From contig NZ_CP011412.1 in assembly GCF_001007875.1 (NCBI RefSeq), positions 1,922,001-1,986,000 of the forward strand: a stretch of DNA of 64,000 nt, written 5' to 3'. Of this stretch, positions 9,157-40,349 are shown piece after piece. A program made the translations under genes and the position numbers. A model generated the notes under the pieces. It ran no database searches. It saw only the letters and a program-made list of their open reading frames with translations, and was not told the DNA's origin. The DNA is from Sedimenticola thiotaurini (GTDB taxonomy: Bacteria; Pseudomonadota; Gammaproteobacteria; Chromatiales; Chromatiaceae). The first letter of the stretch is position 1; each line of letters opens with the position of its first letter.

Positions 9157-11004
9157 ATGAATCTCACTAACCAAAATAGTAAAGATTTCATGGAGATACA
9201 GAAAACACTCGGTTTTACTACGCCTGAGCGCTCCAATGCGCCCACCGATTCAATGCTCCTGAATCCCAAGGAAGTTTCGTCCTGGGTGAGTGGTTTACCT
9301 ATGGCCAACGTGGGAGAGACCTCGCGGCAGGTATTTAAAACCCTTGTTGAGTTCAACAGGATTAACATCCCCCATCTCGATCGAATAAAGATCGCTGAAC
9401 TGCTGCGCCGCCCGATCGGCTACATCTCCGACAACCTGCGAAAGTACTACTACGACTCCCCTTTCCCCCTGTCGGCCAAGAACCGAAAAATCGCCGTACT
9501 CAACCGGGAGCTGTATACCGAGCTGGCCCTCTCCTACAAGATCTTTATCGAGACCATGCTCACCGGGGAAAGTGGCAAGTTTGATCGAAAAATGCTGATC
9601 ATTGCCATTCACCGGGCGATGCGTTTTCTCTCCACGGTGATCTATCAATCTGCCCTCGTCTATGACCCGGTGCCACCCAAGGTCTGGAAAGAGATCCACC
9701 TGCTGTACGCCTATGCCGAGCAGAACGGTATCGAAGAGTTGGCAGTGAAAGATGGCAAGAAGAGCGATTCGGTCAGCAGCATCGGATCCCTGTATAAACA
9801 GATACTGCTGTTCTCCATCTGCTCACCCTATCGACTGCGGCCCCGTAAAATTGAAAACGTCATGCAGTCTCTGGAACAGTGGAGCCTGCTCACCACCCTG
9901 AATATGAGCACCGGAGGAGCTCCGGGCCAGTTTGACTTTGTCGTCAACCTGGCCAGCGACCTGCCACCGCGCCACAGCTCGCTGGAAACCGGGCAGGAGA
10001 ATAGGCTGCGCCGGGTACTCAACACCCAACCGCTGGTGAAGATGTTACGGGAAACCTTCGATCAGCTACCCCAGGACAGTGGCAACAGCGAAGGAGCACA
10101 AACAGGTCAGAAACTCTCAAAGCAGTTGCTGCGGCAGCTGGTCCAGGTCCTGAGCTCCGAACCGAAGCGGGAGTTCGTACGCACCAGGCTCAATTTCGAA
10201 CTGAAAGTGGCCGTGGGCATCAATGCTATCTACAGTCTCCAGACACAGGGGAGCGATGCCCGTGACACCGGCGCATCGCGCGGTGGGAGCTGGGGTGACC
10301 AATCATCCGACAGCACACCCGACCAATCCCTCTACACCCTGTCCGGCAACAAGTTGACCCTGGAGGGCGAGGATGACGCCATACACGAGACTATTCTCGC
10401 CAGTGGCTTTGGCGAATCCGGCTGCAGAGAGGACGGCACCCCGATCTGGGCCAGCCACTCGACTGATAAACAATACGAAACCTTCGCCTGCAAAACAGAC
10501 AACGAGAGTGCCGGCGGCTACTGCATCAACTGGCAGGGAGCCAATGCGCCCAAGGTAAAAATCGGCGAAGTGATCGGCATACAGTCGGCCACCGTCAAGA
10601 ATCAGTTTGCCATTGGCATCAGCCGCTGGATGAAAAACCTGCCCGGCCAGGGCTTGCAACTGGGCATGCAGATGATTGCTCCAAACGCGACCGCTGTAAC
10701 GGTTCACGACCTGGAGACCAACAACCCTACCAGCCATCCCAAACAGTGCCTGCTGCTGCCGGAACTGAAGGCATCTGAACTTCCGGCCAGCCTGATTCTA
10801 CCGACCCTGCCGTTCAAGCCCGGCGATGCCATTATGATTGAGCACAACGGCATGGAGAGGAAGGCCAAACTGACCCAACTGATGGAAACAACCGGCGCTT
10901 TTGCCCGCTTCCAGTTTACCTATCTGGATGGACAGACAGGCGACAGGGAGAGTCACTCCAACGAAGACCCTGCCGATTTTGACAACATCTGGCCCATGCT
11001 GTAA
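9157..11004 (+). CDS. Large protein with PilZ-like C-terminus, adjacent to fimX
   Basis: The product is 615 aa with no signal peptide or membrane segment. The first roughly 380 residues are mostly helical with no motif I can name. From about residue 395 a beta-rich region follows, containing DNESAGG: N449-E-S451-A-G-G454 fits the D/N-x-S-x-x-G half of the PilZ c-di-GMP-binding signature. The preceding RxxxR half is not evident, so nucleotide binding is uncertain. It precedes the FimX-like gene by 60 bp and is very likely cotranscribed. The equivalent slot next to fimX in P. aeruginosa (between psd and fimX) also holds an uncharacterised gene, from memory. A role as FimX partner in type IV pilus control is inferred. 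Confidence 0.75.
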   Translation: MNLTNQNSKDFMEIQKTLGFTTPERSNAPTDSMLLNPKEVSSWVSGLPMANVGETSRQVFKTLVEFNRINIPHLDRIKIAELLRRPIGYISDNLRKYYYDSPFPLSAKNRKIAVLNRELYTELALSYKIFIETMLTGESGKFDRKMLIIAIHRAMRFLSTVIYQSALVYDPVPPKVWKEIHLLYAYAEQNGIEELAVKDGKKSDSVSSIGSLYKQILLFSICSPYRLRPRKIENVMQSLEQWSLLTTLNMSTGGAPGQFDFVVNLASDLPPRHSSLETGQENRLRRVLNTQPLVKMLRETFDQLPQDSGNSEGAQTGQKLSKQLLRQLVQVLSSEPKREFVRTRLNFELKVAVGINAIYSLQTQGSDARDTGASRGGSWGDQSSDSTPDQSLYTLSGNKLTLEGEDDAIHETILASGFGESGCREDGTPIWASHSTDKQYETFACKTDNESAGGYCINWQGANAPKVKIGEVIGIQSATVKNQFAIGISRWMKNLPGQGLQLGMQMIAPNATAVTVHDLETNNPTSHPKQCLLLPELKASELPASLILPTLPFKPGDAIMIEHNGMERKAKLTQLMETTGAFARFQFTYLDGQTGDRESHSNEDPADFDNIWPML

Positions 11005-11064
11005 TGATGCAGAATTAATGTTATTCCAAACAGGTATTTCAATGACACTGGACAACTGCCAGCC

Positions 11065-13152
11065 ATGAATGGAAATCCCGAAACTGATATTTCAATCAGG
11101 CTTCTGGTAATAGAGTCGTCCCTCAATGAGGCAGAGGCCCATATCAGTACGTTACGCAACGCCGGCCTGATAATTCATCCGACCGTTGCCGTGGATGATG
11201 AGGCGTTACTGGATATCGCCGATGATGAAAAACCCGAACTGATACTGCTTTCCCTGCCGGAACCGTTGGACAAACTGACGGCCATTCTCAAGCTCTGTAA
11301 GGCGGCCTTTGCTGACACACCCTACGTCATTATCTATAAGGATCCGGCAACCGATCCCGCCACCCTGATTCAAACCATGCGCGATGGCGCCCGGGATGTG
11401 GTCTGTGCAAACGACCCGGACCATCTGCAGCTGGTTGTCATGCGGGAGTCCGAGGAGATCTACCTGCGCAAAGAGCTGGCAGAGACCCGGGAAAAGTTAA
11501 AAGAGGCGGAAGCCCTCTGCAGCACCCTCATCGAAAGCTCCCAGGACGCCATTGCCTACATCCATGAAGGGATGCACATGCAGGCCAACCCGGCCTATCT
11601 GGAGATGTTCGGTTTTGTGGATATGGATGAGCTGGAAGGTTTGCCTATCCTTGACCTGATCCCGGCCAAGGATCACAAAACGATCAAATCCTTTCTCAGG
11701 ACCCTGGGCCGGGAGCATACCGAGCTCAACATCGCCTGCCAGAACAGTGCCGGGGAGGTTTTTGATGCCAAGTTGGAGTTCTCGCCGGCCACCTTTGACG
11801 GCGAGCCATGCACCCAGTTGATCATCCGCAATGAAGCACAGAACAAGGAGCTTGAGCAGACCATCGAACTGCTGAGCAACCAGGATGCCCAAACCGGCCT
11901 GGCCAATCGTCAATATTTCATGGCGAAAATGGAGCAGCAGATTGCCACGTCGAGTGAAACTGACACCGGCTGCTCCCTGTTCTACATAGTCATCGATGAC
12001 TTCCGGGAAATCAGGAGCCACATCGGCATCACCGCGAGTGACAACCTGCTCAAGGAGCTGGCCGACCTGCTCAGCGAAAATATCGATAAAGAGGAGCTGC
12101 TGGCCCGTTTCGGCGATCACTCATTTACCATCCTGAGCCCCAAGCATAATAGCATCGATGTGGAGACTATGGCGGAGCGACTGCGCCTGCTGGTGGAAGA
12201 GTATATCTACCAGGAGATCAACGTCACCTGCAGCATCGGTGTCAGTCTGTTCGATCCCGACAGCCCGGGAAGTCAGGATTTCATCAATCGCGCCTACCAT
12301 GCCTACGAGGCGGCCCGTAATGGCGGTGGCAATCGCTACTCCTGTTACGACGCCAGTGAGATGCAGGCCAGCTACGGTGAAGATAACACTGGTGACGAAG
12401 CGCGGATCAACGAACTGATTGAGCACGCCCTGGAACATGACCGCTTCCGGCTGGTCTACCAGCCGATCGTCAGCCTGCAGGGCGATAGCCGGGAACACTA
12501 TGCGGTGTTAACCCGGCTGCTGGACAACAACAATGAAGAGATTCTCCCCGACCACTTTATCCGCTACGCCAAGCAGGGTGAGCAGATGGCCAAAGTGGAC
12601 CGCTGGGTAATCGACAAGGCCATTGAAGAGCTCTCCGAACAGCGTAAAGAGGGTAAAAAGGTCAACTTCTTTATCAGCATCTCAAGCTCCGGACTGGAAG
12701 ATGAGGGCATGCTGCTCTGGATCTGCGACTGCCTGCGCAAATACAGCGCCAAGGGTCCCTGGATCACTTTCCAGATTCAGGACAAGGATCTGCGCAACCA
12801 TATTCAGAACGCCAAGAAACTGATCGAAGGCCTGAAGAAGATCAAATGCCAGTTGGCTATTGACCAGTTCGGCTCTAACCCGAAAGCGGACACACTGCTG
12901 AAACATCTGCCGGTGGATTTCGTCAAGTTCGATTTCGAACTGATGCAGGACCTGGCGTCCAACCAGGAGCAACAGGACCACTTGAACGAGCTGAATGCCC
13001 TGGCCAAGGAACACAATATCAAGACAGTGGCCATGGGTGTGGAAGATGCCAATAGCCTGGCGATTCTCTGGACTGTCGGGGTTAACTACATTCAGGGCTA
13101 TTTTCTTCAGGAACCATCTGAAAACATCTCCTATGAGTTCAGCTCCGCATAG
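11065..13152 (+). CDS. fimX: FimX-like protein: REC-PAS-GGDEF-EAL, catalytically degenerate
   Basis: The 695-aa protein has, in order, a receiver-like domain (1-130) lacking an obvious phosphoacceptor Asp, a linker coiled coil (130-150), PAS (150-265), GGDEF (275-430) and EAL (440-690). GGDEF reads G350-D-H-S-F354 and EAL reads A480-V-L, so both active sites are broken. This matches FimX, a c-di-GMP-binding effector that localises to the pole and controls type IV pilus assembly; length and domain order agree. High-affinity binding through the EAL domain remains possible, since many pocket residues such as RL after AVL and the QPIVSL segment are kept. Position downstream of rhdA-psd supports orthology. 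Confidence 0.88.
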   Translation: MNGNPETDISIRLLVIESSLNEAEAHISTLRNAGLIIHPTVAVDDEALLDIADDEKPELILLSLPEPLDKLTAILKLCKAAFADTPYVIIYKDPATDPATLIQTMRDGARDVVCANDPDHLQLVVMRESEEIYLRKELAETREKLKEAEALCSTLIESSQDAIAYIHEGMHMQANPAYLEMFGFVDMDELEGLPILDLIPAKDHKTIKSFLRTLGREHTELNIACQNSAGEVFDAKLEFSPATFDGEPCTQLIIRNEAQNKELEQTIELLSNQDAQTGLANRQYFMAKMEQQIATSSETDTGCSLFYIVIDDFREIRSHIGITASDNLLKELADLLSENIDKEELLARFGDHSFTILSPKHNSIDVETMAERLRLLVEEYIYQEINVTCSIGVSLFDPDSPGSQDFINRAYHAYEAARNGGGNRYSCYDASEMQASYGEDNTGDEARINELIEHALEHDRFRLVYQPIVSLQGDSREHYAVLTRLLDNNNEEILPDHFIRYAKQGEQMAKVDRWVIDKAIEELSEQRKEGKKVNFFISISSSGLEDEGMLLWICDCLRKYSAKGPWITFQIQDKDLRNHIQNAKKLIEGLKKIKCQLAIDQFGSNPKADTLLKHLPVDFVKFDFELMQDLASNQEQQDHLNELNALAKEHNIKTVAMGVEDANSLAILWTVGVNYIQGYFLQEPSENISYEFSSA

Positions 13153-13313
13153 TGATCGCCCAACCCGCTCCCCGGAAGCCGCAAGCGGTTTTCGGGGCGG
13201 CACTGTTTCCCCGTCCAACCTGATTACTGAAGCCCCGGACCACCTTAGGTCGGGACATCTGCACACCATTTTTGACAGCAGGACAAAGACCCGGAGAAGG
13301 TTTTTCCCATATC

Positions 13314-14441
13314 ATGCACCCACACTTTGGCACGGATCACCGGAGTTACCACGCGCGCATGCAGTGCAGCAACTGTCATCATCAGATTGAAGACCCGGAA
13401 GCGCTCTTCTGTGCCCAGTGCGGGCAGTCCCTCTGCATTGAAGGACATTGCTGCTGCTGTGGAAAACGTTTGCAGCCCAACGCCAACTTCTGCGATCGCT
13501 GTGGCGCACCGGTAGCAGTCGAACCAACGACCCCTTCCATGCCCATCATGGAATCCCTCAAGGTCATCTCCCCGCCAGCCACCCCATTCCGGGGAGGGGT
13601 TCAAGCGGAAGTCCGACACCATGTTGAACAGGCGCAGGCAAAACGCACCGTAGAGCGGAAAATCCAGCGGGAAAAAGCGCACCAGGCCGCCAGGTTGCTC
13701 AAGTACGGGCTTAGGGAGAACGACTGGATAAGCATTGCCGGTGGCAGCTTCCTGATGGGTTCTCCGTCCGGGGAAAAAAATCGCTTCGAAAATGAACGTC
13801 AACATGAGGTAGAGGTGAAACAGTTTGAAATACTCAAGACGCCGGTCACCTTTGCCATGTTCGACATCTACTGTAAAGCGATACAAAGCTCTTTCCCGGG
13901 TGATGAAACCTGGGGCCGGGGCAATCGGCCAGTCATCAATGTCAGCTATTGGTCTGCCCTGGAGTACTGCCAATGGCTCGGTGAAAAAATTGATGCCCCA
14001 ATCCGCCTGCCCACCGAGGCGGAGTGGGAATATGCCTGTCGCGCGGGCACTGATACACCGTTCTGGACCGGTCAATCTATCTCGCCGGATCAAGCAAATT
14101 TTGACGGTAACTACACCTATGGCGGCAGTGAGAAGGGGCTCTCCCGCGGCCAGACCACACCGGTAGATCAATTCCCTGCCAATCCCTGGGGACTGCATGA
14201 CATGCATGGCAATGTGTGGGAATGGTGTGCGTCGATCTACGACGAGACCTACAGCGGCCTGGAACTTCAGGATGCCGGTTTCGACTATGAGGACCACCGG
14301 GAACGGGTGGTACGGGGCGGTTCCTGGCACAATGTACCGAGTGGATTACGCAGCGCATCCCGCAACAAACTGAGACCGGACTATCACTATCTTCGGGTCG
14401 GTTTTCGGATCGTCCGGGAGGTAACCACAAACGGCGTATAA
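13314..14441 (+). CDS. Double zinc-ribbon plus formylglycine-generating-enzyme-like (SUMF1) domain protein
   Basis: The product is about 375 aa. The N-terminus holds cysteine pairs CSNC/CAQC and CCCCGK/CDRC (about residues 18-63), typical of double zinc ribbons. A charged helical linker follows, then a FGE-sulfatase domain beginning at ISIAGGSFLMGSPSGE and ending with RVVRGGSWHN...LRVGFRIVRE, the family hallmark. These domains occur in sulfatase-activating enzymes but also in many non-enzymatic proteins; without the two catalytic cysteines being evident, activity is doubtful. No signal peptide, so cytoplasmic. Three in-frame ATGs (13272, 13314, 13359) are possible starts; none has a perfect ribosome site. 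No sulfatase gene lies nearby. Confidence 0.8.
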   Translation: MHPHFGTDHRSYHARMQCSNCHHQIEDPEALFCAQCGQSLCIEGHCCCCGKRLQPNANFCDRCGAPVAVEPTTPSMPIMESLKVISPPATPFRGGVQAEVRHHVEQAQAKRTVERKIQREKAHQAARLLKYGLRENDWISIAGGSFLMGSPSGEKNRFENERQHEVEVKQFEILKTPVTFAMFDIYCKAIQSSFPGDETWGRGNRPVINVSYWSALEYCQWLGEKIDAPIRLPTEAEWEYACRAGTDTPFWTGQSISPDQANFDGNYTYGGSEKGLSRGQTTPVDQFPANPWGLHDMHGNVWEWCASIYDETYSGLELQDAGFDYEDHRERVVRGGSWHNVPSGLRSASRNKLRPDYHYLRVGFRIVREVTTNGV

Positions 14442-14450
14442 AGGCGTCTG

Positions 14451-14488
14451 AAAAAAAAGCCCGTGATGTCCGATCGGATATCACGGGC
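14451..14488 (-). terminator. Terminator of the liv-type ABC operon
   Basis: A near-perfect 30-bp dyad (GCCCGTGAT arms at 14459-14467 and 14480-14488, inner arms also pairing) is followed in the minus direction by eight T residues (A-run 14451-14458). It lies between the convergent SUMF1-like gene and livF and can serve livF. Confidence 0.9.
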
Positions 14489-14511
14489 CCTGTAGTACCG
14501 ATGGTAGTGGT

Positions 14512-20244: not shown

Positions 20245-20733
20245 CTACCAGGGCATAAAGCCATTCATAAAAGTCATGGGGCGGGAGATACTTTGATTCA
20301 TGCGGGACATATCCTGGCGCATGATATAGGTGGAGACGGTCATGGACTGGATCGACTTGTCCATGGAGCCAATGGTTTCCAGCATGGGCTCCAGGGCACT
20401 GACCTTGTCGTTTATTTCGGACATATAACCGGACATGGTTCTGATATTGGCCGTCATGTTGTTCATGTTATCCGACACAGAGCGCATGTTATCCGCCAGC
20501 ACCGTCATATTGGAATCAACACTCACAGCCAGATAATGCACATCCCTGGCCAGGCTGTAGACCAGAAAAAAACCATAGGCAGCCAGGATAATGAACGCGA
20601 ACAGGGATGGATAGACAATCAGCTCCCAGCGCCGGGCACTGGTCTCAAACGCTTCTGAAAGACGATCCATGGAGTCACCCTGCCCCTCATCTGGAGTCTG
20701 CTTCTGATCCACACGCTCTTTTTCCTGGACCAT
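20245..20733 (-). CDS. Small membrane protein with periplasmic or cytoplasmic coiled coil, unknown
   Basis: The 162-aa product has a charged N-terminus, one membrane segment near residues 40-62 (YPSLFAFIILAAYGFFLVY) and then a long helical stretch with heptad-like M/I/V spacing and recurring N-M, S-M pairs (DNMRSVSDNMNNMTANIRTM), rich in methionine. This looks like a methionine-rich coiled coil. An AGGATAGGG precedes the start. It ends the co-directional run from 30367 downwards, 160 bp after the DUF302 gene, and the AT-rich upstream (20770-20850) may hold its own promoter. No family recognised. Confidence 0.7.
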   Translation of the reverse strand: MVQEKERVDQKQTPDEGQGDSMDRLSEAFETSARRWELIVYPSLFAFIILAAYGFFLVYSLARDVHYLAVSVDSNMTVLADNMRSVSDNMNNMTANIRTMSGYMSEINDKVSALEPMLETIGSMDKSIQSMTVSTYIMRQDMSRMNQSISRPMTFMNGFMPW

Positions 20734-20893
20734 CTACCCTATCCTCGAAACCATGCCTGTTCACATAGCTAATTAATTTATTGCTAATATTTTAATTATC
20801 TAATATATCTTAACACAGAAGCAATCCGACCAATGTCGTTTTTTTATTTATAGGGGGCATAGCAGGGATTTATATCCATCTCCCCCACCCCGG

Positions 20894-21472
20894 TCAGAAA
20901 TCGCCCGCGGCACCACGCTGCATGATCTCCAGAATCACCCGCTTCACATGCAACGCCTCCTCCTTCAGGGCTGGTGGCAGCGGTTCACCACCATGGATCA
21001 TCAGGTCCATGTTCAGGGTATAGAGCCAGAGCTTACCCTGCTTGTCCTCGACCAGGGTTATCCGGCACGGCAGGTAGGCGGAGAATGCATCACTGTAATC
21101 GAGCATTTGTGCCGCAGTCAGGGAGTTACAGAACATGTAGATCTTGACAAACCGGTACGGTTTCCCGCTTTTCGCCGCCACATCCTTGGAGAGAGGCAGC
21201 TCACCCACGTTCGAAATGTTGAGCTCATTGGCGACCAGCTTCATCGATTGCTCCACATCTTCTGCAGTCAGCCCCTCCTCCACCGGCATCTTCCAGACTA
21301 CTGCGTCCGCGGCGTTGCGGGTGTCGAGCACCTTTTCAAGCAGCTCCCCATAGACCCCTGGAGCATCCGGGTCAAAACCATCCACTATCGGGTAAACCTT
21401 GTAGACCAGCACACCAGCGGCGAGTACGGTCAGAAAACCGATCAGGGTAAAGAGATTTTTGATCACACGCAT
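20894..21472 (-). CDS. DUF302 domain protein with N-terminal membrane anchor
   Basis: The 192-aa product has an uncleaved hydrophobic segment (residues 7-28) and then a DUF302-type domain: MKLVANELNISNVGELPLS, YRFVKIYMFCNSLTAAQML and AYLPCRITLVEDKQGKLWLYTLNMDLMIHGG, cut here in pieces. The final segment YTLNMDLMIHGG matches the common DUF302 ending (tP..m). Two cysteines (CNS and PCR) are spaced such that they could pair. DUF302 function is unknown, though structures suggest a small dimeric fold near metal or sulfur genes. AGGAGGG lies 6 nt upstream of the ATG. Confidence 0.82.
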   Translation of the reverse strand: MRVIKNLFTLIGFLTVLAAGVLVYKVYPIVDGFDPDAPGVYGELLEKVLDTRNAADAVVWKMPVEEGLTAEDVEQSMKLVANELNISNVGELPLSKDVAAKSGKPYRFVKIYMFCNSLTAAQMLDYSDAFSAYLPCRITLVEDKQGKLWLYTLNMDLMIHGGEPLPPALKEEALHVKRVILEIMQRGAAGDF

Positions 21473-21559
21473 ATTGCACCCTCCTGGTATTCCGGTCCCA
21501 TGGGGTTAACCGGAGTTGTCAAATCCCTGTTGCCGAACCGCCGTGCCGGCTCGCAGTCG

Positions 21560-22192
21560 TCACTTCAATACGTCGGGATATAGTTTGGCGCAGAGTGCAT
21601 TTAACTCCTTGCTACCCTTGCCTTTCGGATTCAGTTCAAACACCGCCAGTCCTTCACTGAAAGAGCGGCGAAAAATAGTACGTTGTGACAGTCGCGGTTT
21701 GATGAACCTGATCCCGGGCAGGGAGACCAGTGCCGCAGCCGCTTCATCCGTCTCCCGTACCGCGTGATGGGTATCCCCCCGATTGATAAAACCGATGATC
21801 TCAGGGACATCACCTTCGGTGGTGGCATTGACAAACTGAATGAATCGCTGGGTCGACCAGATATCCGCCTGGGAGGGAGGCACCGGCACCAGTATGCGAT
21901 CAGCCAGTCGGATAGCACGTTTCATCATCTCCAGATCCGCCGTGCCGATATCGATCAACACCTCATCGCACTGCCGAAGTTCATCACTATCCAACTGTTT
22001 TTTGTCCTGCACGGTGATTTGCGGCCGATAACCCTCTTCATCACGCACTTCCGCCACATCCCGCAGCGTCGCCTGGGGATCCAGATCTATCAGCTGCACA
22101 TCTGTATCCGCCATTGCCAGCCAGATGGCCAGATTGAAGGTCACGGTACTCTTCCCTGACCCGCCTTTCAGACTACCCACAACAGTGATCAT
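21560..22192 (-). CDS. ParA/MinD-type P-loop ATPase
   Basis: The 210-aa ATPase has a deviant Walker A KGGSGKST at residues 9-16, with the signature lysine (K9) of the ParA/MinD class, followed by a switch region LIDLDPQATLRD and a second DIGTADLEMMKRA. Length fits small ParA proteins (like those beside cytoplasmic chemoreceptors or cargo clusters), not the larger chromosomal ParA with an HTH. No ParB, parS-like site or replication gene is near, so a role in positioning a protein assembly is more likely than plasmid partition. It sits inside the RND-linked operon. Confidence 0.88.
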   Translation of the reverse strand: MITVVGSLKGGSGKSTVTFNLAIWLAMADTDVQLIDLDPQATLRDVAEVRDEEGYRPQITVQDKKQLDSDELRQCDEVLIDIGTADLEMMKRAIRLADRILVPVPPSQADIWSTQRFIQFVNATTEGDVPEIIGFINRGDTHHAVRETDEAAAALVSLPGIRFIKPRLSQRTIFRRSFSEGLAVFELNPKGKGSKELNALCAKLYPDVLK

Positions 22193-22246
22193 ACCCGTAC
22201 CTTTGCGCTAAATTCAGATACCTGGAAACCGGAAAAGCCGCCGCTC

Positions 22247-23161
22247 CTAGTAGACCGACCCGGGAAAGCGCTGGGCCGTATTGCGCCAGGCCAGTAACTC
22301 GCCCCGGCTCATGGGCCGGTCCCGCATTTGTTGCGCCTGATAAGAGCCCATGGGACGCCTCACCTGCCCAGCCTGGCGGGGGTCAGGCCGGGACCGATAG
22401 TTCGGCGCTGCAAACGGTGCCGCACCATAACGTTGCGGCATCGGGTATCCCCGGTAAGCGGCCGGTCGCGGCATGGGTCGGAATTGGTAGTTCGACCGTC
22501 CGGTCGGCACCCTTGAGTAGGGTTGGTAACGACCGGCAAACCGCCCCGGCAGCGCCCGGGGCCCCGGTATTGGTCCAGCCGGATAGGCCTGTCGTTGGGG
22601 ATAGCCGTGATAGGCTCGCGGCATGGATGCACGTCCCGGCACTGTCCAGTTCGGCTGACGGTATCGCACCGGGACCATGGGCGGATAGGGAAGCCGGGGT
22701 CGGTATTGTCGAACCTGGGGATAACCCTGCACGCCAACCGGAGGTCGGGCGGGGTAACCGTAAACCATACGGGGTGCGGCCGGCACAGCATAATTGCGCA
22801 TTGGGGGTCGGTAACCGGCCCAGCGTGGCGCCGGTCCACGATAACCATAGGGTGGTGCATAACGGGGGGCTGGCGGCAGCATGGGACGATAGCTGACCGG
22901 CAATGGCCAGTTACCCGCGCGCCGTACCGGTGCATGGGCTGGCGGAACACGCCCCGGAGGAGCGAATCGGGCCGCTGGCCGGAGCGGCTGGGCTCGGAAA
23001 TGGGGTCTGAAACTGGCTACTCCCTGTGAAGGCGATGCCGGCACATAGTTGGGCATCATCTGTTGCGGCACGCCAACCGGTGAGGCGAACACAGCGCCTG
23101 CTGCCGAAACAAGCAGCAGAACGGACGGTGCCGTTAAAATCCATCTGAGTCTGATCTTCAT
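22247..23161 (-). CDS. Secreted Pro/Arg/Tyr-rich low-complexity protein
   Basis: About 304 aa with a signal peptide (LTAPSVLLLVSAAGAVFASPVG) followed by a highly basic, proline- and tyrosine-rich chain with many RP, YRP, GYP and PPAPRY motifs and almost no acidic residues. No cysteine, no domain. Such a chain is expected to be disordered and to bind polyanions (LPS, DNA, polyphosphate) or cell wall. ATG at 23161 has GGGGTG 6 nt upstream; a GTG three codons earlier is the alternative. It lies between the ParA-like and the outer-membrane-sorting-like gene, and is co-directional with the RND pump genes. The gene's skewed codon content produces long open frames on the other strand, which are not genes. 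Confidence 0.7.
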   Translation of the reverse strand: MKIRLRWILTAPSVLLLVSAAGAVFASPVGVPQQMMPNYVPASPSQGVASFRPHFRAQPLRPAARFAPPGRVPPAHAPVRRAGNWPLPVSYRPMLPPAPRYAPPYGYRGPAPRWAGYRPPMRNYAVPAAPRMVYGYPARPPVGVQGYPQVRQYRPRLPYPPMVPVRYRQPNWTVPGRASMPRAYHGYPQRQAYPAGPIPGPRALPGRFAGRYQPYSRVPTGRSNYQFRPMPRPAAYRGYPMPQRYGAAPFAAPNYRSRPDPRQAGQVRRPMGSYQAQQMRDRPMSRGELLAWRNTAQRFPGSVY

Positions 23162-23219
23162 TAGTTTCACCCCATGATCATCTGATCATTCAGTATATTT
23201 ACCCGCAACAGACCACCGA

Positions 23220-23981
23220 CTATCTCTTCTGGCTCTGCTGCTGGGGTACGATTTTCCTGAACTCCGCAGGCACCTGGAACAGACCGGGGTTCTGCGGCGC
23301 AATGGTAATATTACGCAATTCCCGCACATAACCGAGCGGGCTCTCCTCCCTGATGGCCAGGTTAAGCTGCGGATCAAACCAGCGCAGAGAGCGCTGTACC
23401 GGCTGATCGCCCTGGCTGACAGTCATCTCCCACTTCTCTACTGTGCGCCCGTCGAACTGCTCTACCTGCAGCATGCGCTGCTCCATAACCGGGCCATCCT
23501 TGACCTCCTGTCGCAACAGGATCGAATGCTGTTTGCCGATCCACTGGGTACTCTGAACGGCCCCCTTTTGCGACGGCATGCTCACCTGCCATTTGGTGGC
23601 CGGCCGGCCATGCAGGGTTTCATCACCCAGTTTTTTGCACCGGGCACCCGGTACACCTGCGCAGGGACTACCCGCTTCCGCCACGGGTTGCCCGGAACCC
23701 ATACGGTATTCAATATAGCTGCCCTGCCGGGGATAGAGCACCCAGGTCACTCCACTGTCGGTATCGACAATACTGACCACCGGCTGGCCATTCTGCTCCG
23801 ACTCGCTGCGCACCCTGTTCTTGCCGACGAAGATGTGGCCGACCCGCTGATTCTTCTGCGGATCAGTCTGAACGGTATCGGCAGAAAACTCCACTGCCGC
23901 CGGCGAGGCCGCCCGGACCTGGGGTATCCCGGTCAACAACAGGCAGAGGCCCAAGACCAGGATTTGACCGCGGATTGACAT
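23220..23981 (-). CDS. Periplasmic protein resembling outer-membrane lipoprotein-sorting (DUF4412/LolA-like) proteins
   Basis: About 253 aa from ATG at 23981, which has an excellent GAGGAGGTG 3-8 nt upstream; a longer frame to 24062 is rejected. Signal peptide GQILVLGLCLLLTGIPQVRA then a beta-rich domain: VEFSADTVQTDPQ, HIFVGKNRVRSES, VSIVDTDSGVTWVLYPRQGSY, a two-cysteine hairpin (SPCAGVPGARCKKLG), and C-terminal FQVPAEFRKI. This pattern fits the LolA/LolB-like DUF4412 class that handles lipids or precursors in the periplasm. It is in the RND operon, so a lipid-handling partner for the pump is plausible but inferred. Confidence 0.7.
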   Translation of the reverse strand: MSIRGQILVLGLCLLLTGIPQVRAASPAAVEFSADTVQTDPQKNQRVGHIFVGKNRVRSESEQNGQPVVSIVDTDSGVTWVLYPRQGSYIEYRMGSGQPVAEAGSPCAGVPGARCKKLGDETLHGRPATKWQVSMPSQKGAVQSTQWIGKQHSILLRQEVKDGPVMEQRMLQVEQFDGRTVEKWEMTVSQGDQPVQRSLRWFDPQLNLAIREESPLGYVRELRNITIAPQNPGLFQVPAEFRKIVPQQQSQKR

Positions 23982-24058
23982 CTTCACCTCCTCATCACCA
24001 CACCCGGCTGACTCCCGGAGCGGCGCTCTCCTTCCAACTCCTGCCAACTGATCAACAG

Positions 24059-24496
24059 TCATGAGGGTTGTCGTTTTATTATGTGGGTTTCGCCGGGAAA
24101 CCTGCCGTAGCCCCGATTGCCACCCCCCTGGGGACGAAAACGATAGCCGGGATCCGTCTGACCGGAGTGCGGACGATAGTGCTGCGCCGCCGCCGGACCT
24201 TTGCGATACCGTGTATCGGGTCTGAATCGCGGCTTCTGCCAGCGTTGCTGTTGCGACGAGTCAGCGGAATAACCGGCTGCCGGGTAGCCGGGGCCCATCA
24301 CCGCGGAACCGGAACGGGATTGCGGCGGGTAATAACCAGCCGCACCGGAATATCGGCCCTTGCTCATACTGTTTGACGAGGCATCGGATGCTCGATCCAG
24401 CGGACGAAACTTGCCATAAAATGCCCCCGATTCTTCAGCCATTGCCAGGTGAGAGATCATCAGTACAAAGATCACACCTGACAGTCGTTTGATCAT
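24059..24496 (-). CDS. Small secreted Gly/Tyr/Arg-rich protein
   Basis: The product is about 145 aa from ATG at 24496, with GGAGGG 6 nt upstream. Signal peptide LSGVIFVLMISHLAMA, then low-complexity basic sequence (YYPPQSRSG, YRKGPAAAQHYRP, YRFRPQGGGNRGYGRFPG) with few acidic residues. It resembles the larger Pro/Arg/Tyr-rich protein two genes downstream and may act with it. It starts 13 bp after the RND pump stop, so it is very likely cotranscribed with the pump. No known family. Confidence 0.65.
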   Translation of the reverse strand: MIKRLSGVIFVLMISHLAMAEESGAFYGKFRPLDRASDASSNSMSKGRYSGAAGYYPPQSRSGSAVMGPGYPAAGYSADSSQQQRWQKPRFRPDTRYRKGPAAAQHYRPHSGQTDPGYRFRPQGGGNRGYGRFPGETHIIKRQPS

Positions 24497-24509
24497 GATG
24501 CCCTCCGGA

Positions 24510-27500
24510 TCACTCGATGCCATTGTCGTTATCAAGTTTCAGCCGAATACCACGCCGCCCCCCTTTGCGCCCGGCAGCAGGCTTTCCCCCACCTTTCGCC
24601 GTTGTCGCTTTGGTCTGCGCCGGAGCGGCAGTTTCAGTTTTCGCGCCGGCTGGATCGGCGCGCTTGACAGCTTTTTTCCTGACGCCGCCCTTTGTCCGGG
24701 TGGCCGCCTTTTTCACCGGCGCCTTCTTCTTCCGGGCCGATTTCTTCCTGGCTGCCGGTTTGGCCGCCGCCGGCTTCTCCCCGACCGGCAGATCCGGGGT
24801 CCGGGTTTCCGGTTCGCTATCCGTGACAACTGGCGGGACGCTCGTGATCTGTTCAACCGACTTGTCCGACGCCTGCGGTTGCATCCGGGCGGCAGGTGCC
24901 GGACTGGAAACAGTGCCGCCATCCGGCGACTGCTCATCCGCTACGGATGAAGCTGCCCCTGTCCCGCCGCCGGCTTGCCCGGGTGCGGCAGCCGCCGTTG
25001 CCGACGGCGCAACAACAGGAGTTGGGGGGGGCGCTTTCTGCCTGGGGATCAACTGCCCGAGCAGGAGGAAAATCCCCCGCACCGCATAAAAGAGTCCCAA
25101 TAGCAGTGCCGCAATCTTGCCCCATAACATCATCAGGAACGACTGGCGGGGTGCAGATCCCTTGACAGCCGCAGGCGGTGTCTCGGACGCTTCCGGCAAC
25201 AGCGTAGTGCCATCGTCATAGCCGGCGGCCGCCACCTCACATAGCGCCGCGCTGGCCTTCATACATCCCAGCGGGATCACGATCAGGGTCAGGATAGTGG
25301 AGACCATTACCCCCGAAGCCAGTGAAATAGCCATGCCCTGGAAGATCGGATCAGTGAAGATCACACTGGAGCCACATACCAGGGCCAGTGCGGTAATCAT
25401 GATGGGCCGGGTACGGGTGGTACAGGCACGCACCACCGCCTGCTCCACCGGCACACCCCGCTGGATCTCATGAATGGAGAAGTCCACCAACAGGATCGAG
25501 TTACGCACAATAATACCGGCCAGGGCGATCCAGCCGATCATGGAGGTGGCGGTAAACTCCGCCCCCATAATGGCGTGCATGGGAATGATGCCCAGCAGGG
25601 TCAGGGGGATAGGCGCCATGATCAGTGCCGGGATACGGAAGTTGCCGAACTCCCACACCACCAGGATATAGATCAGCACCAGCGCCACCATGAAGGCCGC
25701 ACCCATGTCTCGGAAGGTCTCAAAAGTGACGGTCCATTCACCGGTCCACTGGATACTGGAGCGCGTATCATCTGCCGGCGGCTTGAACCAGAAGGCGTCC
25801 ACTTTCGATCCGTCCGGAGCAGTGTAATCCTCCAGCAGATCCTGCACCTGGAACATGCCGTACACCGGGGCAGCCAGTTCACCACCCACATCAGCCACCA
25901 CATACTCCACCGGCCGCAAATCCTTGTGATAGATGATGGGCTCTTCCTGCATCATCTCGAAAGAACCCAGCTCACGCAGTGGCAGTACCACCCCACTGGT
26001 GGACTGGATCGGCAGATCCCCCAGCCGATTTATCTGGGAACGCTCTGCCAGGGGTACCTGGATGACAATATTGATCGGTTCATGCCCGGCCTTCTGCTTC
26101 ACATCACCCAGGCGCATGCCGCCAAGTGCCATGGAGAGATTCCGGTTGATGGTGTCCACCGAGACTCCGCGTCGGACCGCCTTCTCCGTATCCACCTTGA
26201 ACAGCCAGTAGTCATAGCTGCCCCGGAGATAGTTATCCACATCCACCAGGCTCTCGGTCTGCTCGAATATATCGGTCAGATCCGCCGCCAGCTGGCGCCG
26301 TACTTCAGGTCCGGGCCCATGCACTTCAGCCACCACGGACTGCAACACTGGCGGGCCGGGCGGCATCTCCACCACGGCAAACTTGGCACCGGATTCCCGG
26401 GTGATCTCCTTGACCATTTCACGGGCAGCGACTGCCAGCTCATGACTGCTGCGATCCCGTTTGCTCTTGTGCAGCAGTTGTACCTGAATCTCCGCCTGCC
26501 AGGGATCCTGACGCAGATAGTAGTGCCGGACCATGCCGTTGAAATCGAATGGTCGGGCAGTACCGGCGTACACCTGCAGGGCCGTGACTTCAGGCATCTG
26601 GCGCAGGCTGTCGGCAATCTGGTGAGCCAGGTTGGCAGTGACCGGCAACGCCGTACCCTCCGGCATATCCAGAACTACCGAAAACTCCGGTTTGTTGTCC
26701 AGCGGCAACATCTTCACCGCCACCCACTTGGTATAGAACATGGAGCAGGCAAAGAAGAAAGCGCCCCACAATATGATGCGGAAAATGATGCGCTTTTTAC
26801 GGGAGCGGATCAGCGGCGTGAGGACCCTTTCGTAAAAGCGCGCCAGCCGCTCCGTGCCCACTCTTTCCCGCTCTTCGGCCACTTCCAGATAGTTCATGCT
26901 GGGGCGCAGCCAGCGGGAAATGGCCAGCCAGGGGGTAAACACGAATGCGGCAAACAGGGAGATCAGCATGGCCGCCGAGCCGAGCGCGGGAATCGGCTCC
27001 ATGTAGGGTCCCATCATGCCGGTGACAAAACCCATCGGCAGCAGCGCGGCGATGACCGTGAAGGTAGCCAGGATGGTGGGATTGCCCACTTCCCGCACCG
27101 CGTCGACCGCGGTGTGGGCATCGGTGGAACCGGTTTCCAGCCAGCGCCGGTAGATGTTTTCCACCACCACAATCGCGTCATCCACCAGGATACCGATGGA
27201 GAATATCAGGGCAAACAGGCTGACCCGGTCAATAGTGTAGCCGGTGACCCAGGCGTAGAAGATGGTCATCAACAGCACCACCGGGATCACCAGCACCACC
27301 ACCATGGCCGGGCGCAGGGCGCGGAAGGCGAACAGCACCAACAGGAATACAAACCCGGTAGCGACGAACAGTTTGAAGATCAGTTCGTTGACCTTGTCCT
27401 CAGCCGTTTCACCATAGTTGCGGGTAATACTGACGCCCACATTGGAGGGGATACGCAGTCCTTTCAGATGCTCCACCCGCTCAATTATGGCGCTGGCCAC

Positions 27501-28517
27501 GGTAACCCCGTTGACGCCCGGTTTTTTCGCCACCGCAATGGTCACGGCGGGGATGCCGCTGGCCGGCTGTTCATGATCGCCGGCCGGCCCCGTGTAGTAA
27601 GCCACCAGCTGCTTGGCATCCTCCGGCCCCTGTACTACCCGGGCCACATCATGTACATAGACCGGCACGTCATTGTGGGTGCCGATCACTAACTGGCTGA
27701 TGTCGTCAGTGGTCTTGAGAAAGGCGCCGGTCATTACCGTGAATCGGGTGTTGCCCGATTCCACCCCACCCGCCTGCTGTTCACTGTTGGAGGTCTGGAT
27801 ACGGTTGGCCACCTGATCCAGGCTGATGCCATAGCCGGACAGCCGTTCCGGTGATACCTCGATAGTGACCTGCTCGGCACGTCCGCCCACCACGAAGCCG
27901 TTCCCGGTATCCGGGATCTCCTTGATACTCTGCAGAACATCGTGGGCCAGCATGCGCAACTGACCATCATCCACGTCCGGGGCGCCGTTACCGTCCAGAT
28001 CCTTCGACCAGAGGGTGATATTGACCACCGGCACGTCGTCGATCCCCTTCGCCTTCACCAGGGGTGGCGACACTCCCGGCGGAATCTTGTCCATGTTGGA
28101 GTCGAGTTTGTCGTTTACCTTGACCAGAGACGGGCCCATCTGCTCGCCCACGTCAAATTCGATGGTGACCATGCCCATGCCCCGTTGCGAGGCAGAGTAG
28201 ACATGCTTAACCCCATCGATCTCACTCATAATCCGCTCCAGCGGTTCGATGGCGAGATTGGATACCTGGTCGGCAGAAGCACCAGTGTACTGGACGAAGA
28301 TATCCACCATCGGCACGGAGATCTGGGGATCCTCCTGCCGGGGCGTCATCATCAAGCCCAGCAGCCCCATCAACATCATGGAGATAAAAAACAGCGGTGA
28401 GAGCGGTGAGTTGATGAAGAATCTCGCGGTACGCCCGGCAAGCCCCAATTGCTCGTCGGTCAGTGGCGCATCCTTCAATCCGGTTTTATTGGCATCTTCC
28501 TGATTCATCGTTTTCAC
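24510..28517 (-). CDS. RND (AcrB/HAE1-type) efflux pump with histone-H1-like C-terminal tail
   Basis: The product is 1335 aa; typical RND pumps are about 1030-1050. Residues 1-1080 show the full RND plan: a first membrane helix, a porter domain, a 10-helix core (FSIGILVDDAIVVVENIYRRW is the TM4-type stretch, in pieces), a second porter half and last helices with the family ending SMIGWIALAGIIVRNSILL. After about residue 1080 comes an extra hydrophobic segment (1115-1150) and then a 180-residue tail rich in Ala, Pro, Lys, Arg (KPAARKKSARKKKAPVKKA), like bacterial histone-H1-like proteins, ending RLKLDNDNGIE. The tail should be cytoplasmic if the extra helix is odd-numbered. Start: GTG at 28517, or ATG at 28508. 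Confidence 0.92.
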   Translation of the reverse strand: MKTMNQEDANKTGLKDAPLTDEQLGLAGRTARFFINSPLSPLFFISMMLMGLLGLMMTPRQEDPQISVPMVDIFVQYTGASADQVSNLAIEPLERIMSEIDGVKHVYSASQRGMGMVTIEFDVGEQMGPSLVKVNDKLDSNMDKIPPGVSPPLVKAKGIDDVPVVNITLWSKDLDGNGAPDVDDGQLRMLAHDVLQSIKEIPDTGNGFVVGGRAEQVTIEVSPERLSGYGISLDQVANRIQTSNSEQQAGGVESGNTRFTVMTGAFLKTTDDISQLVIGTHNDVPVYVHDVARVVQGPEDAKQLVAYYTGPAGDHEQPASGIPAVTIAVAKKPGVNGVTVASAIIERVEHLKGLRIPSNVGVSITRNYGETAEDKVNELIFKLFVATGFVFLLVLFAFRALRPAMVVVLVIPVVLLMTIFYAWVTGYTIDRVSLFALIFSIGILVDDAIVVVENIYRRWLETGSTDAHTAVDAVREVGNPTILATFTVIAALLPMGFVTGMMGPYMEPIPALGSAAMLISLFAAFVFTPWLAISRWLRPSMNYLEVAEERERVGTERLARFYERVLTPLIRSRKKRIIFRIILWGAFFFACSMFYTKWVAVKMLPLDNKPEFSVVLDMPEGTALPVTANLAHQIADSLRQMPEVTALQVYAGTARPFDFNGMVRHYYLRQDPWQAEIQVQLLHKSKRDRSSHELAVAAREMVKEITRESGAKFAVVEMPPGPPVLQSVVAEVHGPGPEVRRQLAADLTDIFEQTESLVDVDNYLRGSYDYWLFKVDTEKAVRRGVSVDTINRNLSMALGGMRLGDVKQKAGHEPINIVIQVPLAERSQINRLGDLPIQSTSGVVLPLRELGSFEMMQEEPIIYHKDLRPVEYVVADVGGELAAPVYGMFQVQDLLEDYTAPDGSKVDAFWFKPPADDTRSSIQWTGEWTVTFETFRDMGAAFMVALVLIYILVVWEFGNFRIPALIMAPIPLTLLGIIPMHAIMGAEFTATSMIGWIALAGIIVRNSILLVDFSIHEIQRGVPVEQAVVRACTTRTRPIMITALALVCGSSVIFTDPIFQGMAISLASGVMVSTILTLIVIPLGCMKASAALCEVAAAGYDDGTTLLPEASETPPAAVKGSAPRQSFLMMLWGKIAALLLGLFYAVRGIFLLLGQLIPRQKAPPPTPVVAPSATAAAAPGQAGGGTGAASSVADEQSPDGGTVSSPAPAARMQPQASDKSVEQITSVPPVVTDSEPETRTPDLPVGEKPAAAKPAARKKSARKKKAPVKKAATRTKGGVRKKAVKRADPAGAKTETAAPAQTKATTAKGGGKPAAGRKGGRRGIRLKLDNDNGIE

Positions 28518-28584
28518 ACTTGGTTGCAGCGGTCTGACGGGAGTGATGGGTAATCACGGATATGGCTGGACAAAGCAGCGCGTT

Positions 28585-29736
28585 TCAACGCTCCTCTGCC
28601 CGCCTGATCCAACCGGAAGCGATTCCGTTGCTGGGATTGCGCAAAATGCGTTCCCCCGAACTCAACCCGGACAGTACGCTGACGTAACCGTTATCCAGAC
28701 TTTCGCCAACTCGAATCAGTCGTAACTCCGGTCGTCCACCCTTACCCTCGACATAGACGCCCGGCAGACTGCCGTTGTAGCGTATGGCCGTGGAGGGGAT
28801 CACCGGTTGATTGCGCACCGGTGCGGTGAGATCCGGCACCCGGACCTTGACATACATACCGGGTGCGGAGACGCCCTGGGGCAGGTCAAACTTCACCTTG
28901 ACGGTATGGCGCTGCGAATCGGCCGTCGGAAATATCTGCGCTACCCGTACCGGCACCACCTGTCCGGTCACGTCCAGTTCCGCCTGCAACATCATCTGCT
29001 CGTAGAGGGCGGGGCGCAGCCTGGCCGGTACATCCACCATGATCTGCAGATACTCCACGTCGGCATAGACCAGCAAGGGCTGACCCGGTTGCATGGTATC
29101 CCCCACCTCGACAAACTTTTTCAGAATCACGCCATCGAAGGGTGCCAGACTGATGGCATCCCGCAGTTTGGCATCGATCGCCTGGATCTGGGACTGGGCT
29201 GACAGGATGGCGTTCTGGGCCTGGGTGATCTGCACGCCGGACGCATAGAGATCAGCCCGCCGCTCCACATTCTGGTTACGCGTACCGGCCATGCCCTCCA
29301 TGGGGCGGGTGAACATCTGGTCAAACAGGTTGGGTAACCCCATACCACCCATGGTCTGTTTCGACTGCGGCGACCAGAGCTCCCGATTGTACTGCACACC
29401 CGCTGCGCGCAACTGTGCATCCGCATTGGCCAGTTGGGCCAGGGCCGCATTGCGTTTGGCCAGGAGTTCCGAATCATCCAGGGCAACCAGCAGCGTGCCC
29501 TTCTCGAAAGTATCGCCTTCGATACCGGCAAGGTGTTTTACCCGTCCGGGAAGTTGTGCCGAAAGGGTTACCTCTTTATAGGGTATAACGGTCCCGCCCA
29601 ACGAGACTGTTGAAGCGCCCTGAGCCTGCTGAACGACGAAGTACTCGCCACCCTCCTGTGCCACACCCTGTAGAGGCAGACCTGCCGCGACAGCCAAGGC
29701 CGCAGCCAGCACAACCGCATGGATCTGTATTTCCAT
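28585..29736 (-). CDS. RND efflux periplasmic adaptor (membrane fusion) protein
   Basis: The 383-aa product has a signal peptide (residues 1-26), a lipoyl-like/barrel-sandwich part (LPGRVKHLAGIEGDTFEKGTLL), a helical hairpin (residues 90-190, including AAGVQYNRELW, and a Met/Gly-rich insert QTMGGMGLPNLFDQMF), a second lipoyl half (SLAPFDGVILKKFVEVGDTMQPGQPL), a beta-barrel and membrane-proximal domain. It lies 68 bp before the RND pump gene. The outer-membrane channel gene is not here. A 10-bp inverted repeat at 29830-29856 upstream may be an operator. Confidence 0.92.
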   Translation of the reverse strand: MEIQIHAVVLAAALAVAAGLPLQGVAQEGGEYFVVQQAQGASTVSLGGTVIPYKEVTLSAQLPGRVKHLAGIEGDTFEKGTLLVALDDSELLAKRNAALAQLANADAQLRAAGVQYNRELWSPQSKQTMGGMGLPNLFDQMFTRPMEGMAGTRNQNVERRADLYASGVQITQAQNAILSAQSQIQAIDAKLRDAISLAPFDGVILKKFVEVGDTMQPGQPLLVYADVEYLQIMVDVPARLRPALYEQMMLQAELDVTGQVVPVRVAQIFPTADSQRHTVKVKFDLPQGVSAPGMYVKVRVPDLTAPVRNQPVIPSTAIRYNGSLPGVYVEGKGGRPELRLIRVGESLDNGYVSVLSGLSSGERILRNPSNGIASGWIRRAEER

Positions 29737-29971: not shown

Positions 29972-30367
29972 TCAGGCCTTACCCATGACAGAAAAACTTT
30001 TTATAAAGGGAGCCGCCATTCGGGGGTCTTTCAGCATGGAGGCGTAATCGCCTACCTTGAATTTCATTTTTCCCGAGGTAAACGCCATACCAAGCCCCAT
30101 CATGCCGGGCGGCTTGGCAATCCACTTCTTCCACTGCGCCTCGCTGCAGCGGATATCCCAGTTCAGCGCCTGTCCGCTGAAAGAGCCGGCCGCAGTAGCC
30201 TGGCCGTTTTCCACACTGATCACTCCGCGGGGTTGTTCCTCCCCCTCAAATCCGTAGCCGATCACACTGCTGAATCCGATCTGCGCCAGCGCATCCACTA
30301 ATTCGGACTCCGCATTCCACTGTTCCATGAAACTCTGCATCCACGCTTCTGAAAATAGCTCAGACAT
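29972..30367 (-). CDS. SCP-2 sterol-transfer family protein
   Basis: The 131-aa product is a compact SCP2-like domain: FEGEEQPRGVISVENGQATAAG in the sheet part, WDIRCSEAQWKKWIAKPP and FTSGKMKFKVGDYASMLK near the end, the latter being the family signature G-K-[ML]-K-[FV]-[KE]-G-[DN]. These proteins bind lipids or act as partners in hydrophobic metabolite handling. No signal peptide, so cytoplasmic. Strong AGTGAGGA before the ATG. It lies 236 bp upstream of the RND adaptor gene, same strand; separate transcription is likely because of the hairpin between them. Confidence 0.78.
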   Translation of the reverse strand: MSELFSEAWMQSFMEQWNAESELVDALAQIGFSSVIGYGFEGEEQPRGVISVENGQATAAGSFSGQALNWDIRCSEAQWKKWIAKPPGMMGLGMAFTSGKMKFKVGDYASMLKDPRMAAPFIKSFSVMGKA

Positions 30368-30709: not shown

Positions 30710-32239
30710 ATGAACACGGCAGGAAGACTCATCGAAGGACGCCTGAAGCATCTTGAAGCCCATCTCGAACAAGAGAATCCCGTACTGCTGAAAACGGTGC
30801 AGAGCTTCAAGAAACTGGATCGCATCGCCTACCGGACAGGCCTGCTTGATACGGATGAGTCCTACGCCACCCAGATCCCCTGGTGGCCATTGATCGCCGT
30901 GCTCGGCACTTTCTCATCCGGCAAATCCACCTTCATCAATCACTATCTCAACTATAAGTTGCAGCGTACCGGCAATCAGGCAGTCGATGACAAATTCACG
31001 GTCACCTGCTACAGCCGGGAGAAGAGTGCCCATGCCCTGCCCGGCGTCGCTCTGGACTCGGATCCGCGTTTTCCGTTCTACCAGATGAGCGAGGATATCG
31101 AACGGGTCGCCAAGGGCGAGGGCGACCGGATAGACTCCTATCTGCAACTGAAGACCTGCCCCAGCGAACGATTGCGCGGCAAGATCCTGATCGACTCTCC
31201 GGGATTCGATGCTGATGCCCAGCGCACCTCAACCCTGCGTATTACCGATCACATTATTGATCTGTCTGACCTGGTGTTGGTCTTCTTCGATGCCCGCCAC
31301 CCGGAGCCGGGGGCGATGAAAGACACCCTCGACCACCTGGTGAGCAACACCATCAGTCGCAATGACGCGGGCAAGTTTCTCTATATCCTCAACCAGATCG
31401 ACTCCGCCGCCCGGGAGGACAATCCGGAAGAGGTGGTAGCCGCCTGGCAACGGGCGTTGGGAGAACGGGGCCTGACTGCCGGCCGTTTCTACACCATTTA
31501 TAATCCCGATGTAGCCCTGCCCATTGATGACGAAAATCTGCGGGAGCGTTTTGAACGCAAGCGGGACGCCGATCTGGAAGAGATCCATAACCGCATGCAC
31601 GAAGTGGAGGTGGAGCGGGCCTATCGTATTGTCGGGGTACTGGAGCGCACCGCCCGGGACATCGAGGAACGGGCCATCCCCGCCATCAGGGAGGCTGTAG
31701 GACGCTGGAAACGGCGCGTCCTCTGGGGTGACGCCCTGGCTTTTGGACTACTGTTGGCCGGACTGTTCAGCATCACTCTGAAACAGGGCTACTGGCAGGG
31801 ATTCCATTTTGCGCCACCCTGGCTGGAGTCAGTAATCAACAGTCCGGCGTTGCAGTTCGGACTGGCCGGCACAGCGGTAGCGGTGGTGCTGGGCCTGCAC
31901 TTCCTGATACGCTCCCTGGCGGCCCGCAGCCTGCTGCGGCAACTGAAAAACCAGGGAGAGAAACTGGCCATCCGGGGCAATCTGGCAAACGCTTTCCTGC
32001 GCAACACCAAGCCCTGGCGCAGTATCTTCAGCAGCTCACCGGCAGGCTGGGGACGGGGAGCCAGAAAACGACTCGCCCAGGTCAAGGAAGATGCGGACAA
32101 CTATGTACAGACCCTCAACGATCGTTTTACCAATCCGTCGGGGGACGCCGCGGTACAGTTGGAAAACCAGCCAGAACTGGCCAGTACAACTGTTACGGAT
32201 AGTGAGACTGTGCCAAACCCCGATCCCGCCAGCAGCTGA
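30710..32239 (+). CDS. Dynamin-like GTPase, membrane-associated
   Basis: The 509-aa GTPase has G1 GTFSSGKST (66-74), a threonine in the G2 region (DKFTVT), G3 D162-S-P-G165 and G4 NQID near residue 227, giving a canonical dynamin-family G domain. A helical region follows, then two hydrophobic segments at about 345-365 and 378-400, and a charged C-terminus. Bacterial dynamin-like proteins remodel or guard membranes; some act in phage tolerance. It is alone, not in the tandem pair often seen. A GGAG lies 6 nt upstream of the ATG. Its direct neighbours give no functional hint. Confidence 0.85.
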   Translation: MNTAGRLIEGRLKHLEAHLEQENPVLLKTVQSFKKLDRIAYRTGLLDTDESYATQIPWWPLIAVLGTFSSGKSTFINHYLNYKLQRTGNQAVDDKFTVTCYSREKSAHALPGVALDSDPRFPFYQMSEDIERVAKGEGDRIDSYLQLKTCPSERLRGKILIDSPGFDADAQRTSTLRITDHIIDLSDLVLVFFDARHPEPGAMKDTLDHLVSNTISRNDAGKFLYILNQIDSAAREDNPEEVVAAWQRALGERGLTAGRFYTIYNPDVALPIDDENLRERFERKRDADLEEIHNRMHEVEVERAYRIVGVLERTARDIEERAIPAIREAVGRWKRRVLWGDALAFGLLLAGLFSITLKQGYWQGFHFAPPWLESVINSPALQFGLAGTAVAVVLGLHFLIRSLAARSLLRQLKNQGEKLAIRGNLANAFLRNTKPWRSIFSSSPAGWGRGARKRLAQVKEDADNYVQTLNDRFTNPSGDAAVQLENQPELASTTVTDSETVPNPDPASS

Positions 32240-40265: not shown

Positions 40266-40349
40266 GGAACTCACCCTGACGGGCAGGCCTAATGCGACCT
40301 GGACACCTTTTGCGTTACTGGACTAACGAAAAATAATGAGGTGATGACA

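Follow-up and report, generated by a model that had tools for sequence, protein, structure and literature searches.

The locus lies in a window of 64,000 nucleotides from Sedimenticola thiotaurini, a sulfur-oxidising organism (contig NZ_CP011412.1, positions 1,922,001 to 1,986,000). All eight open reading frames reported there by a first-pass annotation were confirmed at their coordinates, on the minus strand, with mostly short gaps and in the order described. The unit is larger than these eight genes, as it also includes an SCP2-fold gene and a divergent gene for a dynamin-like GTPase. Its features, in window positions, are as follows.

20245-20733, minus strand: single-TM, Met-rich coiled-coil protein ending in FMPW, DUF948-like (weak DUF948 match, below the cut-off)
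20894-21472, minus strand: membrane-anchored DUF302 protein with invariant C115 and C136 (PF03625, 46 bits, cut-off 23; alignment A4)
21560-22192, minus strand: ParA-type ATPase of the ParF size class with invariant Walker residues (CbiA/MipZ; alignment A1; closest solved relative ParF, 4dzz)
22247-23170, minus strand: Pro/Arg/Tyr-rich secreted protein (pI 11.7) in the low-complexity slot before ParA; the slot is conserved, the sequence fast evolving
23220-24062, minus strand: LolA-fold secreted protein with two invariant cysteines; likely true start 23981 (alignment A2)
24059-24535, minus strand: Gly/Tyr/Arg-rich secreted protein (pI 10.3) in the slot between the pump and LolA-fold genes; likely true start about 24496
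24510-28517, minus strand: RND pump of 1335 aa (ACR_tran PF00873, 490 bits), about 250 aa longer than AcrB-type pumps
24513-25268, minus strand: pump extension at the C-terminus, in which a hydrophobic segment precedes a lysine-rich, low-complexity disordered tail; present in ParA-linked pumps and not in the ParA-less family
24537-24557, minus strand: RRGIRLK motif near the pump C-terminus, a candidate ParA-binding peptide common to the pumps of ParA-bearing loci
28585-29736, minus strand: periplasmic adaptor (membrane fusion protein) of the pump (TIGR01730, 146.9 bits, cut-off 94.9), conserved in order
29972-30367, minus strand: small SCP2-fold protein (131 aa) encoded beside the adaptor gene; in Sedimenticolaceae and some other families its gene opens the minus-strand unit
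30710-32239, plus strand: dynamin-like GTPase (Dynamin_N PF00350, 48.2 bits, cut-off 27), adjacent in both arrangements of the unit

The apparent overlaps of the LolA-fold and Gly/Tyr/Arg-rich genes are probably start-codon artefacts, because homologues suggest the later starts listed above (23981 rather than 24062 for the former). A promoter and terminator scan of the unit revealed no pattern above shuffles.

Both the permease and the adaptor of a tripartite RND system are encoded in the unit, and the unit as it stands in the window yielded no match to an outer-membrane factor. The closest solved pump scored only 233 bits, with a similarity that stops at query residue 1083. Three members had been described as strongly basic and of low complexity, which holds for the two secreted proteins and for the pump tail (the whole pump has a pI of 6.1). 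Neither secreted protein matched PF17228, the sulfur globule protein (SGP) family, at E 0.1, and their assignment as SGPs was dropped for want of Pfam support. For the protein first annotated as LolA/DUF4412-like, the LolA-superfamily fold was retained on the basis of a predicted structure (pLDDT 83) matching LolA3 (9tp6; Foldseek probability 1.00, E 1.6e-8, TMq only 0.40), while no Pfam family could be assigned. Likewise, the SCP2-fold protein has no Pfam match, and its assignment comes from a model (pLDDT 93) that resembles sterol carrier protein 2 (2cx7, TM 0.77). The Met-rich protein contains 17 Met in 162 aa and one TM, and its C-terminus is conserved in other families. The ATPase carries the deviant Walker A motif with its signature lysine (K9-GG-x-GKST) and the Walker A' and B aspartates (D38 and D81), all invariant in alignment A1; it scored 133.4 bits against the ParA_partition equivalog NF041546, below the curated cut-off of 180.

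Close relatives of the DUF302 protein occur in Magnetococcales without the rest of the cluster, where they adjoin genes for flavocytochrome c sulfide dehydrogenase, FccAB (L096, L099 and L100, at about 10000-14500) and, in L100, SoxYZ as well. This adjacency hints that the DUF302 subfamily handles sulfane sulfur.

A search with the DUF302 protein as query returned 68 loci, onto which the other cluster proteins were then mapped. The recurring order is (SCP2)-adaptor-pump-low-complexity genes-LolA fold-ParA-(TPR protein)-DUF302-Met coiled coil. The TPR protein, composed of a TM, an acidic linker and a C-terminal TPR, is missing from the Sedimenticola locus. The dynamin-like gene is divergent and upstream in Sedimenticola and Thiodiazotropha, and last on the same strand in other gammaproteobacteria and in Magnetovibrio. 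Altogether, gammaproteobacteria of about 30 families have the gene set, as does Magnetovibrio. In a class-wide sample of 38 ParA loci, the adaptor and pump were encoded within 10 kb on the same strand in 27, the Met protein in 23, the dynamin-like gene in 21, and the TPR protein and an SGP-model match in 20 each, counts that are lower bounds because many contigs end. Gene order is thus conserved far beyond the genus, and a chance neighbourhood was rejected. The same conservation, with the neighbours kept together in other genomes, supports the earlier proposal of a single envelope machine.

Other features were observed around the cluster. A PAS-GGDEF-EAL protein is encoded directly after it, 3' of the Met coiled-coil gene, in many Sedimenticolaceae-type loci (L042, L044, L047 and L093); in the window such a protein (11065-13152) lies 7 kb further from the cluster, and the locus might have a connection with c-di-GMP. 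A 615-aa protein (9157-11004), with no Pfam match, is conserved near the cluster in 12 loci. Elsewhere in the window (40349-63091), a respiratory cluster (cytochrome d1 / NapC-EB_dh) has ten copies of a repeat of about 500-530 bp, together with an exact 300-nt duplication, on its flanks. The two copies of the latter start at 40349 and 59509, 19,160 bp from each other, and coincide with cytochrome c genes that precede COX1-family genes. This arrangement suggests a recent segmental duplication.

In related loci, PF17228 matches lie between the pump and ParA, in the same low-complexity slot as in the window (51.1 bits in L054, 68.7 in L083 from Magnetovibrio and 34.7 in L086; cut-off 26.7), and the slot proteins of L055 and L063 gave weaker matches below the cut-off. 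Co-occurrence was then derived from 369 gammaproteobacterial genomes, a cluster ParA being counted above 240 bits. PF17228 was found in 56 genomes and the cluster ParA in 60, with both in 48, PF17228 only in eight, ParA only in 12 and neither in 301 (Fisher p ~3e-40, a value that, like the one given below, overstates the association since the genomes are related). By family, 24 had both ParA and SGP, six ParA only and three SGP only. Three of the genomes scored as ParA only (G209, G329 and G164) encode a divergent SGP beside ParA, detected with an SGP model built here. As eight genomes have PF17228 and no cluster ParA, a genome need not encode this ParA in order to have globule proteins. The sample contains only six phototrophs by the photosynthesis marker PF00124, none of which has PF17228 or the cluster ParA. 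The S. thiotaurini genome itself has five PF17228 matches, all outside the window, and two dsrA matches; the literature searched holds no record of sulfur globules in this species, whose genome paper names polyphosphate and PHA (PMC4472907).

As shown by this comparison of sequences, the conserved unit (adaptor, RND pump, low-complexity secreted proteins, LolA-fold protein, ParA, TPR protein, DUF302 protein, Met coiled-coil protein and dynamin-like GTPase) tracks sulfur globule proteins across genomes. The locus is therefore very likely linked to sulfur globules. Given the PF17228 genes inside homologous loci and the genome-wide co-occurrence, the cargo would most likely be the periplasmic sulfur globule.

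Sulfur oxidation in general was discarded as the driver of this association, as ParA follows PF17228 within the Dsr-positive genomes: among 118 genomes with dsrA, 42 had both, eight SGP only, seven ParA only and 61 neither (p ~1e-16). These counts also bear on an alternative, unlikely in our view, in which the locus carries reduced sulfur (polysulfide or sulfane) across the envelope, to or from the enzymes that oxidise it, with the globule or the cell surface at the other end, ParA only placing the transporter, for example at the pole, and globules being downstream rather than cargo. Such a role would suit the transport parts, pump and adaptor, and a DUF302 protein that has two invariant cysteines and, in other bacteria, close relatives encoded next to FccAB and SoxYZ, but it accounts poorly for a ParA that still follows the globule proteins in Dsr-positive genomes and for SGP genes placed inside the cluster.

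The pump tail offers a candidate connection to ParA. The sequence [RK]RGI[RKQ]LK or a close variant ends the tail in 59/59 pumps from ParA-bearing loci, a count in which one genome was entered twice (L093 and L140) and in which two pumps (L054 and L152) have the motif in a second frame, probably through an assembly frameshift. The variants include PRGIRIK in L155 and WRGIRLN in L175. The motif is still carried in four genomes where ParA is encoded away from the pump. Family f81 has no cluster ParA in 20/20 genomes (best stray match 77 bits), and the tail is absent from 13/13 of its pumps, which end shortly after TM12; two f81 loci, one in a complete chromosome, lack ParA and preserve the order of the adaptor, pump, SGP, LolA-fold, TPR, Met and dynamin genes. 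In G015, also devoid of ParA, the tail is kept with a motif decayed to RKSVRIK, and the tail is also absent from paralogous pumps that are not encoded near a ParA (G031, G025:C60 and G375:C131). Apparent motif exceptions in five genomes are limited by contig ends, and three others (G117, G264 and G362) have a diverged ParA elsewhere in the genome. The joint loss of the ParA gene and the pump tail also supports the earlier view that ParA is part of the envelope machine. We also observed pumps of a second subfamily, which share 58-64% identity with that of the cluster and have no motif-bearing tail, in four loci (L247, L253, L207 and L210); several genomes with this subfamily also have the tailed pump.

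Regarding topology, the first part of most tails, some 49 residues past TM12, is a hydrophobic segment with a score similar to that of a TM helix. If this segment crosses the membrane, the motif could be periplasmic. The pumps of three genomes (G150, with L093/L140; G389, with L155; and G329, with L164) lack the segment and keep both the motif and ParA, which argues for a motif that would be cytoplasmic in general.

Partners of ParA-family proteins typically act through a terminus that is disordered and positively charged (PMC10241942). The ParB motif has a central Arg or Lys (PMC12462528), and ParG, the partner of ParF, uses a flexible tail (PMC7308502). Because the motif tracks ParA, including unlinked ParA, and both are lost together, we favour the pump tail as the ParA partner with reasonable though incomplete confidence, in a correlation built on about two independent losses. 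With so few losses, the joint disappearance could have arisen by chance or in one event while ParA acts through another member; alternatively, with the extra hydrophobic segment as a possible 13th TM, the tail could be periplasmic and bind anionic sulfur or envelope polymers. We consider these options quite unlikely, given that the motif is kept where pump and ParA are unlinked, that it is also found in pumps devoid of the hydrophobic segment, and that other members persist without ParA in G113 and G237.

The first-pass annotation had instead suggested the export or handling of an anionic polymer or a lipid. A machine of this type, with no tie to sulfur, would fit the basic low-complexity proteins, the SCP2 and LolA folds and the production of polyphosphate by S. 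thiotaurini (PMC4472907); it is nevertheless very improbable, given that in about 24 families the unit co-occurs with sulfur globule proteins and lies next to them. The anionic polymer gives way to the periplasmic globule, to which the SGP genes in homologous loci point, and neither polymer nor general lipid export was retained as the main role. A lipid step stays possible, since the locus encodes SCP2-fold and LolA-fold proteins.

We thus propose that the locus probably serves the biogenesis and positioning of sulfur globules, with the pump tail gripped by ParA, a reading drawn from gene content and conservation. First, the secreted low-complexity proteins would coat or organise the periplasmic globule. 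Secondly, the pump, the adaptor and the LolA-fold and SCP2-fold proteins would supply it with a hydrophobic component, either a lipid or a sulfane chain. Thirdly, the dynamin-like GTPase and the Met coiled-coil protein might shape or mark the membrane around it. Finally, nucleoid-bound ParA would bind the cytoplasmic RRGI[RKQ]LK tail of the pump, which would trigger ATP hydrolysis as the tails of ParB and ParG do. If the tail is indeed the ParA partner, a nucleoid-based ParA would position a periplasmic inclusion via an inner-membrane pump; by coupling the cytoplasmic ParA gradient to this inclusion, the pump could space or segregate the globules.

We infer these steps with a confidence that falls from the globule as cargo to the binding of ParA by the tail, then to membrane remodelling by the dynamin and finally to a hydrophobic cargo; any specific transported substrate is doubtful. 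The complete proposal seems to us evenly balanced: a trans-envelope machine with a dynamin of its own, in which an RND pump builds the surface of the periplasmic sulfur globule and also offers its cytoplasmic tail as a handle, so that a ParA gradient on the nucleoid could both position and partition this organelle. How sulfur globules are formed, sized, placed and shared out is largely unexplained beyond a few coat proteins, and the locus supplies about ten concrete candidate genes together with a specific peptide-ATPase pair. If true, the proposal would extend ParA positioning to cargo beyond the inner membrane. It is relevant to chemosynthetic symbionts (Thiodiazotropha, Sedimenticola) and to sulfur-oxidising magnetotactic bacteria (Magnetovibrio), whose genomes carry the locus.

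The first-pass annotation knew of no such system, and we found no description of the gene set in the literature searched, which covered sulfur globules in connection with ParA, RND, dynamin, DUF302 and McdA and left most subscription papers outside. The closest known counterparts are the globule proteins SgpA, SgpB and SgpC (PF17228) and SgpD of Allochromatium vinosum, which are also secreted, Gly/Tyr/Pro-rich and associated with periplasmic globules. PF17228 members occur in homologous clusters, whereas the low-complexity proteins of the window fall outside this family. SgpD is the most abundant globule protein, and sgpD adjoins an RND-type exporter gene for hydrophobic or amphiphilic compounds (PMC10386293). 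The literature that we found is confined to envelope proteins and mentions neither a ParA nor a tailed pump nor a dynamin as a partner.

HAE-type RND efflux pumps (AcrAB, MexK, MdtB) have the permease core and adaptor in common with the cluster. The cluster departs from them in the pump tail of about 250 residues with its conserved motif, in the distance to the nearest solved pump (only 233 bits) and in the lack of an outer-membrane channel gene in the unit. The LolA-superfamily periplasmic carriers resemble the LolA-fold protein in predicted fold (LolA3, 9tp6); unlike them, this protein has no Pfam match, shares 15% identity and is encoded in a unit without Lol partner genes.

ParA/MinD systems that position cargo, such as McdAB for carboxysomes, ParC/PpfA for chemotaxis clusters and ParF-ParG for plasmids, likewise rely on a deviant Walker ATPase, here of ParF size. 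Their partner has a disordered basic terminus, for which the candidate in the present locus is the pump tail, whose motif correlates with the presence of ParA. Two differences set the present locus apart. The putative partner is an integral RND pump that would use its C-terminus, whereas known ParA partners use their N-termini, and the presumed cargo lies across the inner membrane, unlike that of these systems. The components belong to known families and, as far as checked, their combination and the proposed trans-envelope use of ParA are new.
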